This document shows, one piece after another, positions 12,539 through 17,152 of a stretch of DNA of 64,000 nucleotides. This DNA is from Paraburkholderia sp. (GTDB taxonomy: Bacteria > Pseudomonadota > Gammaproteobacteria > Burkholderiales > Burkholderiaceae). Each line of letters starts with the position of its first letter. Position 1 is the first letter of the stretch. A program made the translations under genes and the position numbers. The notes beneath the pieces were generated by a model. It had not been told where the DNA came from. It saw nothing but the letters and a program-made list of their open reading frames with translations, and did no database searches. The DNA lies in assembly GCF_004298475.1 (NCBI RefSeq), contig NZ_SCRP01000037.1:39138-103137 (forward strand). Direction: 5' to 3'.

Positions 12539-13063
12539 GTGAACACACGCGCTCCCGCCGCCGCGCCACAGAGCGCCCCCTCCGCACCGCAGCCCGCCAC
12601 GATCCGCCGGCGCCTTGCCGCGCTCGTCTACGAGTCCGTGCTGCTCTTCGGCGTGATCTTTCTCGCCGCGCTCGCATTCAGCCTCGTCTTGCACGCACGC
12701 AACGGATTCACGTACCACAACCTGATGTCGGCGTGGATCACGATTGTCGCGGGCGTGTACTTCGTCGGCTTCTGGCACAGCGGCGGCCAGACGCTGCCGA
12801 TGAAAACATGGCGCATCCGCGTGATCGGCCCGAACGGGAAACCGCCGTCACTGTCGCGCGCCACGGTGCGGTATTTCGCCGCGTGGCTCTGGTTCCTGCC
12901 GCCGCTCGCGCTGCACACGATTTTCCATTTCACGGTTCCGCACACGCTCGTGCTCGTCGCCGTGTGGTTCGTGCTCTGGGTTGCAAGCGCCCGCTTCATC
13001 CCCGGCCGGCAGCTCCCGCACGACCGCATCGCCGGTACGTGCGTCGTGGCGGTGCCGCGCTAA
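12539..13063 (+). CDS. RDD family membrane protein
   Basis: A 174-residue inner-membrane protein with GTG start. After a short Ala/Pro-rich N-terminus, RRRLAALVYESVLLFGVIF starts the RDD domain, here with R-x7-E in place of the canonical Asp. Three to four membrane segments follow, with TLPMKTWRIRV and the late ARFIPGRQLPHDRIAGT as further family marks. RDD proteins have been linked to ion or osmolyte transport in a few bacteria, but most are uncharacterised. It ends the ECF sigma gene block. Confidence 0.88.
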   Translation: MNTRAPAAAPQSAPSAPQPATIRRRLAALVYESVLLFGVIFLAALAFSLVLHARNGFTYHNLMSAWITIVAGVYFVGFWHSGGQTLPMKTWRIRVIGPNGKPPSLSRATVRYFAAWLWFLPPLALHTIFHFTVPHTLVLVAVWFVLWVASARFIPGRQLPHDRIAGTCVVAVPR

Positions 13064-13078
13064 ACGCCCCACCGCCAC

Positions 13079-13120
13079 GGCTGCAAAGGCTGCAAAGGCA
13101 AAGGCTGCAAAGGCTGCAAA
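13079..13120. repeat. Short direct repeats GGCTGCAAA
   Basis: Four copies of GGCTGCAAA, with one partial GGCAAA between the second and third, follow the RDD gene. The tract is non-coding. It may be slipped-strand-derived; no function is evident. Confidence 0.8.
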
Positions 13121-13243
13121 CGCCTGAGAGGCCGTAGCGCGCATCAAAAACGCCGCGCCGCGACGGCGCGCGCAAGCCAGCACGCAAATCTTTCGTCGCA
13201 ACCACACCACAGCCACGGACGGCGTAACACGCCGTTCTCATGA

Positions 13244-13261
13244 CTGTCATGGCACGGTCAC
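13244..13261 (+). promoter_or_regulatory. Pho box (PhoB binding site) before the phosphoesterase gene
   Basis: CTGTCAT-GGCA-CGGTCAC fits the PhoB consensus of two CTGTCAY heptamers separated by four bases. The first half is perfect and the second has one mismatch. The 11-base phase is exact. Ten bases further down CGCAAT (13272-13277) could be the -10 of a PhoB-activated promoter that lacks a -35. The ATG of the phosphoesterase gene is 45 bases after the box. Confidence 0.7.
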
Positions 13262-13305
13262 GCCTGCATGGCGCAATGCACCCATTACAACCCGCCGCGT
13301 GAGCC

Positions 13306-14256
13306 ATGGCCTCAAACACGTCCGCGACCACACTCTTCCGGCAGACCACCGGAACGGCTACCGACCCCGCCGCGTTCCACCCCGGCCCCGCCGACGGTTC
13401 GTTCTCCCCGCCACCGCCGCTGCCCCTGAACGATTCCGCATCGCCCGGCTCCCACGACGACGATCATCCCGCCCCGCATCGCTACCGCACCATCTGGCTC
13501 TCCGATATTCACCTCGGCTCAAGTGGTTGCCAGGCCAACTATCTGCTGGATTTCCTGCGCCATAACGATTCGGACTACCTGTACCTCGTCGGCGACATCA
13601 TCGACGGCTGGCAGCTCAAGAAAGGCTGGTACTGGCCGCAGGCGCACAACGACGTCGTGCAGAAGGTGCTGCGCAAGGCGCGCAAGGGCACGCATGTCGT
13701 GTACGTCCCCGGCAATCACGACGAAGCGGCGCGCCAGTTCTGCGACCTCTCGTTCGGCGACATCCAGGTGCGCGAGGAAGCCTTTCACACGACGCTCGGG
13801 GGCAAGCGCATGTGGGTCGTGCACGGCGATCTCTTCGACGGCGTGATCCAGCATGCGAAGTGGCTCGCCTATCTCGGCGACTCGGCGTACACGGTGATCC
13901 TCGTGCTGAACCGCTGGTTCAACCGGATCCGCTCGCGGCTCGGCTTTCAGTACTGGTCGCTCTCGCAGTACCTCAAGCACCAGGTGAAAAACGCGGTGAA
14001 CTTCATCTCGTCGTTCGAGCGCGTGATGACCGACGAAGCGCGCCGCCGCGGCTGCGACGGCGTGGTGTGCGGCCATATCCACAAGGCCGAGATCCGCGAC
14101 ATCGACGGCATGCTGTACTGCAACGACGGCGACTGGGTGGAGAGCCTCTCGGCGCTCGTCGAAACCTTCGAGGGCGAATTGCGCATCATCTACTGGACCG
14201 TCATGCAGGCGCCGCAGGCGCAGCGCTCGACACGCAAGGCGCGCGTGAGCGCCTGA
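13306..14256 (+). CDS. Calcineurin-like metallophosphoesterase, PlcP-type phospholipase C candidate (LpxH-like)
   Basis: A 316-residue metallophosphoesterase. Metal ligands are visible in order: SDIH (residues 66-69), GDIIDGW (96-102), GNHDE (136-140), VVHGD, and GHIH (256-259). The first 58 residues are Pro/Ser-rich and probably disordered. Databases usually label this family UDP-2,3-diacylglucosamine diphosphatase. The GT4 glycosyltransferase and diacylglycerol kinase downstream, and a Pho box upstream, argue instead for PlcP. PlcP releases diacylglycerol from phosphatidylethanolamine or phosphatidylcholine under phosphate starvation in rhizobia and marine bacteria. That assignment is inference; the hydrolase family is certain. 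Confidence 0.85.
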   Translation: MASNTSATTLFRQTTGTATDPAAFHPGPADGSFSPPPPLPLNDSASPGSHDDDHPAPHRYRTIWLSDIHLGSSGCQANYLLDFLRHNDSDYLYLVGDIIDGWQLKKGWYWPQAHNDVVQKVLRKARKGTHVVYVPGNHDEAARQFCDLSFGDIQVREEAFHTTLGGKRMWVVHGDLFDGVIQHAKWLAYLGDSAYTVILVLNRWFNRIRSRLGFQYWSLSQYLKHQVKNAVNFISSFERVMTDEARRRGCDGVVCGHIHKAEIRDIDGMLYCNDGDWVESLSALVETFEGELRIIYWTVMQAPQAQRSTRKARVSA

Positions 14257-14322
14257 GCGCGCATAACGCGGGCATCGCCCGCGACGGACGACACCAACCG
14301 ACATTTCGAAGGCCGACGACCA

Positions 14323-15354
14323 ATGAAAGTAATGATCGTGACCGATGCATGGGAGCCGCAGGTCAACGGCGTGGTAAGGACCCTGAAGAACACGACGCGC
14401 GAGCTGACTGCGCTCGGCCATCAGGTCGATCTGCTCACGCCGCTCGAATTCCGCACGATCCCGTGCCCGACCTATCCCGAGATCCGCCTTTCGCTGTTTC
14501 CGAAGCGTCATCTGCGCTCGCGCATCGACGCGTTCGGCCCCGACGCGCTGCATATCGCGACCGAAGGCCCGCTCGGCCTCGGCGCGCGCGCCTACGCGAT
14601 CGAGCACAACCTGCCGTTCACGACGGCCTATCACACGCGCTTTCCCGAATACGTGCAGGCGCGCTTCGGCATTCCGCTTGCGGCGACGTATCGCTTCCTG
14701 CACTGGTTCCACAAGCGCTCGCTCGCGGTGATGGCGCCGACGCCCGTCGTCAAGTCGGACCTCGAACAATTCGGCTTCACGAACGTCGTGCTGTGGACGC
14801 GCGGCGTCGATCTCGACATCTTCCAGCCGATGGAATCGAAGGTCCTGAACACCGCGCGGCCGATCTTCCTTTACGTGGGCCGCGTCGCGGTGGAAAAAAA
14901 CGTCGAGGCGTTTCTGAAGCTCGACCTGCCGGGCTCGAAATGGGTCTGCGGCGAGGGCCCCGCACTGGCCGAACTGAAGTCGCGCTATCCGCAGGCGAAC
15001 TACCTCGGCGTGCTGAGCCAGCCCGAGCTGGCGAAGGTCTACGCCGCCGCCGACGTATTCGTGTTCCCGAGCCGCACCGACACCTTCGGCCTCGTGCTGC
15101 TCGAAGCGCTCGCGTGCGGCACGCCGGTTGCCGCGTATCCGGTCACGGGTCCCATCGACGTGCTCGGCACGGGCCAGGCGGGCGCGATGAACGAGGATCT
15201 GCACGAAGCCTGCATCGAAGCGCTCAAGATCGACCGCGCGACGGCGCGCGAGTGGGCGGAGCGCTTCTCCTGGCGCGCGGCATCCGAGCAGTTCGCGTCG
15301 CACCTGAAGCCGCGTGCGCCTGCGACGATGCACGAATCGAGCGCCACGGCCTGA
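14323..15354 (+). CDS. GT4 glycosyltransferase, candidate diacylglycerol glycosyltransferase
   Basis: A 343-residue GT-B enzyme. The N-terminal VTDAWEPQVNGVVRTLKNT is typical of the MgtA/SqdX/Agt-like branch of GT4, and HTRFPEYV follows. The C-terminal nucleotide-sugar domain has FLYVGRVAVEKNVEAFL and the E-x7-E motif in FPSRTDTFGLVLLEALACGTPV. It lies 66 bases after the phosphoesterase and 57 before dgkA. In other bacteria an adjacent PlcP-Agt pair replaces phospholipids with glycolipids when phosphate is scarce. The sugar donor cannot be predicted from sequence. Confidence 0.85.
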   Translation: MKVMIVTDAWEPQVNGVVRTLKNTTRELTALGHQVDLLTPLEFRTIPCPTYPEIRLSLFPKRHLRSRIDAFGPDALHIATEGPLGLGARAYAIEHNLPFTTAYHTRFPEYVQARFGIPLAATYRFLHWFHKRSLAVMAPTPVVKSDLEQFGFTNVVLWTRGVDLDIFQPMESKVLNTARPIFLYVGRVAVEKNVEAFLKLDLPGSKWVCGEGPALAELKSRYPQANYLGVLSQPELAKVYAAADVFVFPSRTDTFGLVLLEALACGTPVAAYPVTGPIDVLGTGQAGAMNEDLHEACIEALKIDRATAREWAERFSWRAASEQFASHLKPRAPATMHESSATA

Positions 15355-15411
15355 GCGGCCCCGGCCTTTAGCGATCTTTCGCTACGTTTAGCGACGACCG
15401 GAGCTTCGACC

Positions 15412-16188
15412 GTGCGCATGCCGACCGACGACAACGAGAAAGCCCGGCCTGCCGGTGCGCCGCAGGCGGCCCACGCGACCCGCAGCGGTTCGCCGTCTGC
15501 CGCCGCAGCGGGCCCGCGTGAGGCGGACTCGCTCGTTACGGCGCCCCGGTCAGCGTACGAAGCGTACGATAGCGATGCACCTACCCGCCTCGCCATGCCT
15601 CTACGCTCACCCTCACCCTCCCACTCTGCCCCGCCATCGGCCTTCACGGCGCCGGAGCGCCGCATTGCGACGCCGCTGGACGACACGCCCGAGCCGCCGC
15701 TCTCGTACCACGACGCGGCCGAACCCGCCGATCCGCACGAGCCCCGCGAACCGCTCGGCCCCGACGATCCGCTTGCGCCCCCGTTCAATCCGTACAAGGG
15801 CAATCGCGGCATCACGCGCGCCTGGCATGCGCTCAAGAACTCGATCGAGGGCTTTCGCGTGGCGATCCGCGAGGAAAGCGCATTTCGTCAGGAACTGACG
15901 CTCGCAGCCATTCTCCTGCCGATCGGCATCGTCGTGCCCGTGGAGCCGGTGGCGCGCGTGCTGCTGCTCGGGTCGGTCATGCTGGTGTTGATCGTCGAGC
16001 TGATCAATTCGAGTATCGAAAACGCCATCGACCGCATCGGGCTCGAGCGCAACGAGCTTTCGCGGCGCGCCAAGGACCTCGGCAGCGCAGCCGTCACCGT
16101 GGCGCTCGCGGTCTGCGTGATGACGTGGGGGCTGATCCTCGTGCCGCTTTTCGGCCCGCCGCTCCTGCGCTGGCTCGGCTCGCTGTAA
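15412..16188 (+). CDS. dgkA: Diacylglycerol kinase with long N-terminal extension
   Basis: DgkA phosphorylates diacylglycerol to phosphatidic acid in the inner membrane. The family core occupies residues 126-258 and starts with NPYKGNRGITRAWHALKNSIEGFRVA. Three membrane helices and the catalytic-Glu region ELINSSIENAIDRIGLERNE are present. The first 125 residues are Pro/Ala/Ser-rich with no family match; a later in-frame ATG at 15595 would halve that extension. Next to a PlcP-like lipase its task would be recycling released diacylglycerol. The GTG at 15412 and ATG at 15418 are both possible starts. Confidence 0.9.
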   Translation: MRMPTDDNEKARPAGAPQAAHATRSGSPSAAAAGPREADSLVTAPRSAYEAYDSDAPTRLAMPLRSPSPSHSAPPSAFTAPERRIATPLDDTPEPPLSYHDAAEPADPHEPREPLGPDDPLAPPFNPYKGNRGITRAWHALKNSIEGFRVAIREESAFRQELTLAAILLPIGIVVPVEPVARVLLLGSVMLVLIVELINSSIENAIDRIGLERNELSRRAKDLGSAAVTVALAVCVMTWGLILVPLFGPPLLRWLGSL

Positions 16189-16219
16189 GTTCCGCCTTCC
16201 CCCGGGCGCAACACACCCG

Positions 16220-16241
16220 GGCCCGCGTCAAGCCGCGGGCC
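16220..16241 (+). terminator. GC-rich hairpin after dgkA
   Basis: GGCCCGCG and CGCGGGCC form an 8-bp perfect stem with a 6-base loop about 30 bases after the dgkA stop. No T-run follows, so termination activity is uncertain. A separate TATAAT (16276-16281) downstream may be the -10 of the TetR gene. Confidence 0.35.
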
Positions 16242-16384
16242 GCTGGCGTTGCCCGTGCCGTCCAGATCACCGGTTTATAATCCCCGGACAGTCTTATGAT
16301 ACAAAGACCAACCGAGTCCGGGCAATCGACGCAGCGGCAAACCAACGGCAGCGCGCAAGCCCGGCACCCACAAGGCCGGACGAC

Positions 16385-17152
16385 ATGGAAGCCAAACCCC
16401 CCCGCCGTACGCGCGAGCGGATTCTCGAGTTGTCGCTCAAGCTGTTCAACGAAATCGGCGAACCGAACGTCACGACGACGACGATTGCCGAGGAAATGGA
16501 AATCAGTCCAGGCAACCTGTACTACCACTTCCGCAACAAAGACGACATCATCAACAGCATCTTCAGCCAGTTCGAGCAGGAGATCGGCCGTCGTCTGCGC
16601 TTCCCCGACGACCATCGCGCCACCATCGACGAAATGTGGGCCTACCTGCAGTACATGGTCGATTTCACGTGGCGCTACCGGTTTCTCTACCGCGACCTGA
16701 ACGATCTGCTCGCGCGCAACCGCACGCTGGAGATGCACTTCAAGCAGATCATCAGCCACAAGGTGCACTTCGCGAAGCAGTTCTGCGAGCAGCTCGTGGA
16801 AGACGGCGAAATGGTGGCGACGCCCGCCGAGATCGCCGTGACCGCGACCAACATCGGCGTGATCGCCACGTACTGGCTCTCGTACCAGTTCGTGATGAAC
16901 CCGCGCAAGTACAACGACCAGGGCGCGATTCGAGACGAGCTGCACCAGGTGAGCGTGCAGATCGTCTCGCTGATGGCGCCGTATCTGCGCGGACGCGCGC
17001 GCCAGCTCTTCGACGACCTCGTATCGGGCAAGCTGCCCAAGCGCGAGTTCTACGACTACCTGCCGCCGCGCGAAGGCGCTGCCGGCACGGGCGCCGAGGT
17101 TGACGAAAAAGCCGACGAAAAATCAGACGAAAACAAGGACATAAGCGAATGA
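16385..17152 (+). CDS. TetR/AcrR family transcriptional regulator
   Basis: A 255-residue regulator. The DNA-binding domain is at residues 8-55: TRERILELSLKLFNEIGEPN, then TTTTIAEEMEISPGNLYYHF with the recognition helix ending in YYHFRNKDDI. The ligand domain has a helical fold to about residue 220. The last 20 residues are acidic and repetitive (DEKADEKSDENK). The stop overlaps the next ATG by four bases, so it is coupled to a LOG-family gene. Target genes and ligand are unknown. Confidence 0.9.
   Translation: MEAKPPRRTRERILELSLKLFNEIGEPNVTTTTIAEEMEISPGNLYYHFRNKDDIINSIFSQFEQEIGRRLRFPDDHRATIDEMWAYLQYMVDFTWRYRFLYRDLNDLLARNRTLEMHFKQIISHKVHFAKQFCEQLVEDGEMVATPAEIAVTATNIGVIATYWLSYQFVMNPRKYNDQGAIRDELHQVSVQIVSLMAPYLRGRARQLFDDLVSGKLPKREFYDYLPPREGAAGTGAEVDEKADEKSDENKDISE

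Follow-up and report, generated by a model that had tools for sequence, protein, structure and literature searches.

Three adjacent genes in a Paraburkholderia sp. genome, plcP, agt and dgkA, very probably form a PhoB-controlled membrane-remodelling operon. They lie within a 64,000-nucleotide stretch of DNA (the window), and, judging from their sequences, would most likely allow Paraburkholderia to exchange phosphorus-containing membrane lipids for sugar lipids when phosphate is scarce. Glycolipid remodelling by PlcP and Agt has been documented for alpha- and gammaproteobacteria. The pairing of lipase and sugar transferase is known from other bacteria, and the new twist seems to be a diacylglycerol kinase fixed behind the pair. 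Our literature search found no report of a betaproteobacterial PlcP-Agt form with dgkA, and an earlier mention elsewhere is possible. The original prediction had read this trio as the betaproteobacterial version of the pathway, and that reading holds in every part open to testing in silico. The trio occurs in Burkholderia, Paraburkholderia, Caballeronia, Trinickia, Cupriavidus and Ralstonia, and at some Polynucleobacter loci, among named loci that are the best 80 of at least 582 confirmed relatives and are therefore biased towards sequences closely related to the window. Six of these 80 loci end too early to judge agt or dgkA, leaving 74 that are readable.

Table 1. Features of the plcP-agt-dgkA locus, with positions counted in the window
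Feature	Position	Strand	Basis or remark
Conserved upstream island	13224..13262	+	Column conservation, 33 orthologous stretches; includes the two features listed next
Degenerate third repeat CGTTCTC	13233-13239	+	Precedes the Pho box in 11-base register
Pho box CTGTCAT-GGCA-CGGTCAC, predicted PhoB site	13244-13261	+	2 mismatches to CTGTCATNNNNCTGTCAT
Conserved leader, Pho box to start codon	13267..13305	+	Column conservation; contains CAAT (13274-13277)
plcP-like gene for an intracellular metallophosphoesterase, putative phospholipase C	13306..14256	+	PlcP identity, tree, LpxH profile score
agt-like gene, GT4, predicted diacylglycerol glycosyltransferase	14323..15354	+	PF13439, PF00534; Agt1 identity
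dgkA, prokaryotic diacylglycerol kinase	15412..16188	+	PF01219 (DAGK_prokar) 106.3 bits, cut-off 22.3

The first gene groups with PlcP rather than LpxH

Pfam identified the first protein as a calcineurin-like phosphoesterase (Metallophos). Its metal-site motifs are SDIHL, GDIIDGW, GNHD, HGD and GHIH, and they correspond to those claimed for it at the outset (SDIH, GDIIDG, GNHDE and GHIH). The protein is 54% identical to the Pseudomonas aeruginosa PA3219 equivalent and 52% identical to Sinorhizobium meliloti PlcP. We assigned both references from their gene neighbours and from their mutual identity of 46.6%; the published value for PA3219 and S. meliloti PlcP is 46%. In a phylogeny, PlcP-like sequences (47 rows) and LpxH (28 rows) separated with an SH-aLRT of 100, and the window gene grouped with characterised PlcP. 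This tree was built by a quick method without bootstrap, and several long LpxH branches were flagged. Two of the 103 PlcP-like segments, which were short or had an internal stop, were removed from the tree and kept in the motif count, and the remainder were thinned by similarity to the 47 rows, the window's included. The 28 LpxH sequences were extracted with a pattern allowing either NRD or NHD, which missed 3 of 31 loci. The GNRD variant of the metal motif is a mark of LpxH; the window protein lacks it and carries GNHD instead. NHD was present in all 103 aligned PlcP-like segments, and NRD in 28/28 extracted LpxH sequences.

Database records call such genes UDP-2,3-diacylglucosamine diphosphatase, and if this first gene were LpxH as annotated, the trio would serve lipid A or envelope synthesis. 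The fold is common to both families: while a sequence search of solved structures returned no meaningful relative of the first protein (best E 0.008), the top solved Foldseek matches to its predicted model were LpxH structures (E 5e-10, TM-score 0.43/0.56, 17% identity). Given the model's mean pLDDT of 73 and its low-confidence first 54 residues, this search indicates a shared fold only. LpxH also shares most metal-site motifs with the window protein, and in one genome (G049) two plcP-like copies are present and no LpxH exceeds the cut-off. Against the annotation, the first protein fell far below both NCBIfam LpxH cut-offs (TIGR01854, 32.3 bits vs 190.35; NF003743, 37 vs 134). The separate true LpxH gene that a wrong label would lead one to look for lies elsewhere in this genome (216.9 bits, cut-off 190.35), and the first protein aligned to it over 43 residues only (23% identity, E 0.026). 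A separate LpxH was likewise found in 47/48 plcP-bearing genomes searched. Because a true LpxH is encoded elsewhere, this gene very likely carries the wrong label, as had been proposed, and the missed profile and the tree split argue the same way. Taken with GNHD, these results make an LpxH identity so improbable that we rejected it. The comparisons support a PlcP-like protein, predicted to be a phospholipase C.

A conserved Pho box precedes plcP

The original prediction had placed a Pho box 45 bases before the first gene. The box is present with its 2 mismatches to the consensus (Table 1), at a distance that we measured as 44 nt from the ATG at 13306. Within the window, sites with at most 3 mismatches numbered 6 against 2.1 expected, a count reached by 3 of 100 shuffles, so that window counts alone are weak evidence for the box. 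Across the genus, all 34 gene-bearing genomes (35 sampled) have a box of no more than 4 mismatches whose distance to the start codon is 44-45 nt, and this conservation of both sequence and position indicates more than chance. In the 33 full-length upstream stretches used for the column count (one of the 34 was too short and was omitted), conservation climbs sharply at about -82 and extends as far as the start codon; further upstream there is almost none. Among the named upstream stretches (best 80 of at least 582 relatives), 50 have a site with at most 3 mismatches, compared with 24/1600 shuffled stretches, and 30 have no such site.

A pattern derived from the box had three matches in the 4.25 Mb genome, which lie before plcP, before pstS and beside phnG; the control gave 0 matches. 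Thirteen sites in the genome have at most 2 mismatches, and neighbour proteins were scored for plcP and three others; phnS also has a Pho-box site, with 2 mismatches. We rejected a chance Pho box on the grounds of conservation and genome-wide specificity, despite the weak excess in the window. The CAAT in the leader sits where the -10 element of a PhoB-dependent promoter would be expected and may be that element; a consensus scan of the leader found no sigma-70 consensus promoter. Three terminator-like sites lie upstream of plcP, all on the other strand and near the number expected from shuffling.

agt and dgkA follow plcP

The genes are separated by exactly the 66 and 57 bases initially reported (14257-14322 and 15355-15411). 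The second protein has GT4/GT1 glycosyltransferase domains (Table 1) and is 52% identical over residues 1-338 to the equivalent of P. aeruginosa Agt1 (PA3218), in agreement with its earlier placement in the MgtA/SqdX/Agt branch of GT4. By analogy with this counterpart, it may glucosylate diacylglycerol. It is the sole close Agt copy in the genome; the candidates for a second copy, all GT4 proteins, were only distantly related (30-37% across some 85-110 residues). At the readable named loci (best 80 of at least 582 relatives), agt adjoins plcP in 69/74.

The score of the third protein (Table 1) bears out its identification as DgkA, and it is the genome's only DAGK_prokar protein. Its family domain begins at residue 143, behind a long low-complexity N-terminus; this N-terminus and the GTG start are uncertain. 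On the same strand and within 1.9 kb of plcP, dgkA was found in 51/74 readable named loci (best 80 of at least 582 relatives); a DgkA motif scan matched 10/51, its pattern being overly strict. Within the genus, dgkA follows agt in 33 of the 34 sampled plcP-bearing genomes, and in G018 the contig stops after agt.

Proposed pathway and alternative readings

At low phosphate, phosphorylated PhoB would bind the conserved Pho box and turn the operon on. PlcP, if it acts as its clade membership suggests, would then cleave inner-membrane phospholipids into diacylglycerol and a phospho-alcohol, and phosphate would be salvaged from the latter. Agt, given its identity to such an enzyme, would join diacylglycerol to glucose, perhaps to glucuronic acid too, yielding a phosphorus-free glycolipid. 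DgkA might phosphorylate excess diacylglycerol to phosphatidic acid and so hold the diacylglycerol pool at a safe level; it might also provide the way back once phosphate returns. The phospholipase activity, the glycolipid product and the PhoB induction are predicted from sequence. For DgkA, linkage and joint absence are observed, and its role in the trio is a proposal.

We tentatively propose that Burkholderiaceae have recruited their sole DgkA into the phosphate regulon as a third remodelling enzyme. Release (PlcP), capture (Agt) and return (DgkA) of diacylglycerol would then be encoded in one operon, forming a reversible diacylglycerol switch in which DgkA is induced by starvation rather than constitutive. 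A possible but less likely arrangement is that PlcP and Agt alone make up the Pho-regulated unit, with dgkA as a housekeeping gene that has a separate promoter and is a neighbour only through the lipid that it shares with them. The usual role of DgkA is general diacylglycerol recycling, and with the 57-nt gap and the uncertain start a promoter of its own is possible. This arrangement would also fit the 23/74 readable named loci (best 80 of at least 582 relatives) with no dgkA behind agt, and a genome without plcP (G058) in which dgkA lies beside a GT4 gene. It fits less well with six Cupriavidus loci, where every ATG or GTG codon listed as a candidate dgkA start precedes the agt stop, and with two MAG loci (L181 and L189), where one candidate lies at -4; such starts suggest coupling. 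A consensus scan of the + strand from 13050 to 16400 found no terminator- or promoter-like site, and a genus member without plcP (G033) also lacks a close Agt and DgkA. A point against the proposed pathway is that DgkA spends ATP phosphate in rebuilding a phospholipid precursor, which runs counter to phosphate saving.

The sole low-phosphate lipid result for Paraburkholderia that we found counts against the glycolipid reading: in P. xenovorans LB400 at 0 or 0.02 mM phosphate, ornithine lipids are described as replacing PE and 2OH-PE ("data not shown"), and no glycolipid is named alongside. Pho boxes have also been predicted before olsB. PlcP might then mainly free head-group phosphate, with ornithine lipids as the real replacement, Agt making a minor glycolipid and DgkA disposing of diacylglycerol. 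We consider this unlikely, since agt is retained beside plcP at nearly all the readable named loci counted above and MGDG is the product of its P. aeruginosa counterpart; moreover, no phosphate would be saved if all the diacylglycerol ended up as phosphatidic acid.

Comparison with known systems

The closest known system to the predicted remodelling operon is PlcP-Agt1 of P. aeruginosa (PA3219-PA3218), where mutants and purified Agt1 demonstrate the pathway (PMC8528852). The plcP-agt order and the Pho box in front are the same, with the identities given above. P. aeruginosa, however, has no dgkA behind agt, and it has a second enzyme, Agt2, for a glucuronic acid lipid, whereas the window genome has one close Agt. 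S. meliloti plcP is under PhoB control (PMC3972451), and its product falls on the same side of the tree as the window protein; unlike in the window, no agt or dgkA is annotated beside it in the record. Among the marine PlcP cluster types 1-6 of Sebastian et al. (PMC4796936), some with Pho boxes, type 2 has plcP followed by agt, as in the window; the terms "diacylglycerol kinase" and "betaproteobacteria" each occur 0 times in the main text of that paper. Phosphate islands of HIMB59 alphaproteobacteria (PMC10734472) resemble the window, by gene names only, in having "LpxH", a glycosyltransferase and a diacylglycerol kinase among their genes; the authors read the first of these as LpxH, in contrast to our PlcP reading of the first gene in the window trio.

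A lipid A synthesis label on a plcP-like gene can mislead studies of phosphate, and the HIMB59 "LpxH" may be such a case. Control of DgkA by Pho, if true, would raise the question of why a phosphate-spending lipid enzyme is induced during phosphate starvation. More broadly, our analysis predicts glycolipid remodelling by PlcP and Agt in Burkholderia, Paraburkholderia, Cupriavidus and Ralstonia, which are important soil, plant and clinical groups.

Organization of the locus

The genome holding the window (4.25 Mb, 38 contigs) has Paraburkholderia as its nearest named relatives among the matches listed. Both intergenic gaps originally predicted within the trio, 66 and 57 nt, were confirmed, and no promoter- or terminator-like sites were found between its genes in the window. 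At positions 13079-13117, after the upstream gene and ahead of the conserved promoter island, GGCTGCAAA-like units are repeated in short tandem arrays.

Features of the plcP-agt-dgkA locus and genome matches to the plcP-box pattern
Feature	Position	Strand	Remark
Pho box (predicted)	13244-13261		upstream of plcP start; named in the original prediction
Metallophosphoesterase gene, 316 residues	first of trio within 13306-16188	+	
GT4 glycosyltransferase gene, 343 residues	second of trio within 13306-16188	+	
Prokaryotic diacylglycerol kinase gene	third of trio within 13306-16188	+	
plcP-box pattern match 1	before plcP		
plcP-box pattern match 2	53 nt before pstS		
plcP-box pattern match 3	174 nt before listed phnG start		C-P lyase system

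The first gene is PlcP-like by sequence

Sequence comparison indicates that the first gene is PlcP-like and not LpxH, the identity implied by its usual label. Its protein is 54% identical to the Pseudomonas aeruginosa PA3219 equivalent and 52% identical to a Sinorhizobium meliloti PlcP reference, while its alignment with the LpxH of its own genome spans just 43 residues (23%, E 0.026). We regard both references as the characterised PlcP proteins because of their neighbour genes (locus names SMc00171, sinI/sinR and cyaB; the S. meliloti gene adjoins acyl-homoserine-lactone synthase and LuxR genes) and because their mutual identity is 46.6%, against 46% in the published comparison (PMC8528852). 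LpxH as the identity of the first gene was rejected at 32.3 bits, against an NCBIfam cut-off of 190.35, and a separate true LpxH was found in another gene of the same genome, scoring 216.9 bits. Across 59 genomes (own and relatives), a plcP-like gene is present in 48 and LpxH over cut-off in 57, and 47 of the 48 plcP-bearing genomes hold both; the exception, G049, has two plcP-like copies (L076, L077) and no LpxH over cut-off. The two families also split with an SH-aLRT of 100 in a tree of 47 PlcP-like and 28 LpxH rows made by a quick method, in which a number of the LpxH branches are long. At the metal site, 103/103 PlcP-like segments read NHD and 28/28 extracted LpxH read NRD. The solved fold nearest to the predicted model (mean pLDDT 73) is LpxH, at 16-19% identity, as would be expected of distant kinship.

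Genome G010 carries two plcP copies (L034, L085; contigs C47 and C24), each located at the end of a contig and sharing 97% and 87% identity with that of the window; a mixed assembly or a real duplication may account for them. A P. aeruginosa plasmid (L064, NZ_CP137508.1) carries a block resembling chromosomal PA3219-PA3218 plus neighbours, and the first gene also has matches in two more plasmid records of this species. In the S. meliloti record L063 (CP090106.1; 3.7 Mb), whose title is pSymB, plcP adjoins acyl-homoserine-lactone synthase and LuxR genes, which is the chromosomal site; this replicon may be mislabelled.

The second gene is Agt-like by sequence

The predicted GT4 gene of Agt type was recovered as an apparent counterpart of the gene after the PA3219 equivalent (52% identity over residues 1-338), and agt adjoins plcP in 69 of the 74 readable loci among the best 80 of at least 582 relatives. 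The P. aeruginosa counterpart is described as making MGDG from UDP-glucose (PMC8528852). Since no second close agt copy was found in the genome, a glucose lipid is the likeliest predicted product. At L113 (in G008) and L155 the agt match falls into two or three pieces; the gene may be broken there, or the sequence in error.

A conserved Pho box precedes plcP

The window alone has 6 Pho-box matches against 2.1 expected, and a match within it, taken alone, is weak evidence of a real site. We conclude on conservation grounds that the predicted box before the plcP-like gene is real. With up to four mismatches allowed, each of the 34 plcP-bearing genomes among the 35 sampled from the genus has a box 44-45 nt ahead of the plcP start codon, a count that leaves out the second G010 copy, whose start is too near its contig end for judgement. 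Across 33 upstream stretches, column conservation is about zero as far as about -82 and then stays high up to the start codon; the conserved region includes one more repeat, the third, which is degenerate but keeps the 11-base register. Among the 80 named loci, the best 80 of at least 582 relatives, which as related loci are not independent of one another, 50 upstream stretches have a site with up to three mismatches, compared with 24 of 1600 shuffles, and 30 have none.

A pattern built from the plcP boxes matched three sites in the whole genome (Table), against none for the control. At up to two consensus mismatches there are 13 sites, four of them adjoining phosphorus genes (plcP, pstS, phnG and phnS) and nine judged by nearby reading frames only. 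Of all consensus boxes in the genome, the best (L004, G000:C3:3044-3061) has one mismatch; a GntR-type regulator-like ORF and phnG are close by.

Many loci have dgkA as a fixed partner

Among the 74 readable named loci of the best 80 of at least 582 relatives, a choice that under-samples more distant kin, dgkA lies within 1.9 kb downstream on the same strand in 51, including Burkholderia, Paraburkholderia, Caballeronia, Trinickia, Cupriavidus, Ralstonia and some Polynucleobacter. The other 23, with Thiobacillus, Collimonas and other Polynucleobacter among them, lack it there. In the Cupriavidus loci of this set, listed dgkA starts precede the agt stop. Within the genus, 33 of 34 sampled plcP-bearing genomes have dgkA after agt; in the remaining one, G018, a contig breaks off behind agt and another opens with a dgkA. 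It is the sole DgkA in 28 of 35 genus genomes, with two or three in six and none in one. The genome with no DgkA is G033 (4.1 Mb); it has no plcP either, and a search of it for a close Agt found none (best match 34% over about 100 residues), making a single case of joint absence of all three genes. In G058, which has no plcP match, dgkA is directly followed by a GT4 gene (C11:105786-107108; GT4 part L246) 37% identical to the window's Agt; dgkA-GT4 linkage is therefore possible in the absence of plcP.

A Pho box in front of plcP-agt is already described (PMC8528852; PMC4796936), and a methanotroph likewise has plcP-agt (PMC9239053). The literature searched, whose reach excluded a B. cenocepacia phosphorus-stress study, yielded no description of plcP-agt in betaproteobacteria or of dgkA as part of a plcP-agt operon. 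Phosphate islands of HIMB59 alphaproteobacteria, reported to include an 'LpxH', a glycosyltransferase and a diacylglycerol kinase (PMC10734472), are a possible independent case of such a gene set.

Lipid remodelling and a proposed pathway

No experiment showing glycolipid in Paraburkholderia was found in the literature searched. In P. xenovorans LB400 at 0 or 0.02 mM phosphate, ornithine lipids are reported to replace PE and 2OH-PE (data not shown; PMC7814305); the relevant passages of that account do not mention glycolipid, and PlcP, phospholipase and diacylglycerol each have 0 occurrences in its main text. As far as those passages go, the result supports phospholipid loss, not a sugar lipid.

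The analysis shows which genes are present and in what order, that the Pho box is conserved, where the first protein falls in the tree, that the genes are linked, and that in one genome all three are missing together. In the pathway we propose, PhoB would induce the operon, PlcP would cleave phospholipid to diacylglycerol, Agt would glucosylate the diacylglycerol, and DgkA would recycle the surplus. The predicted DgkA role is the weakest of these steps because the enzyme spends ATP phosphate during starvation, an expense that might be explained as a safety valve against diacylglycerol, or as a route back once phosphate returns.
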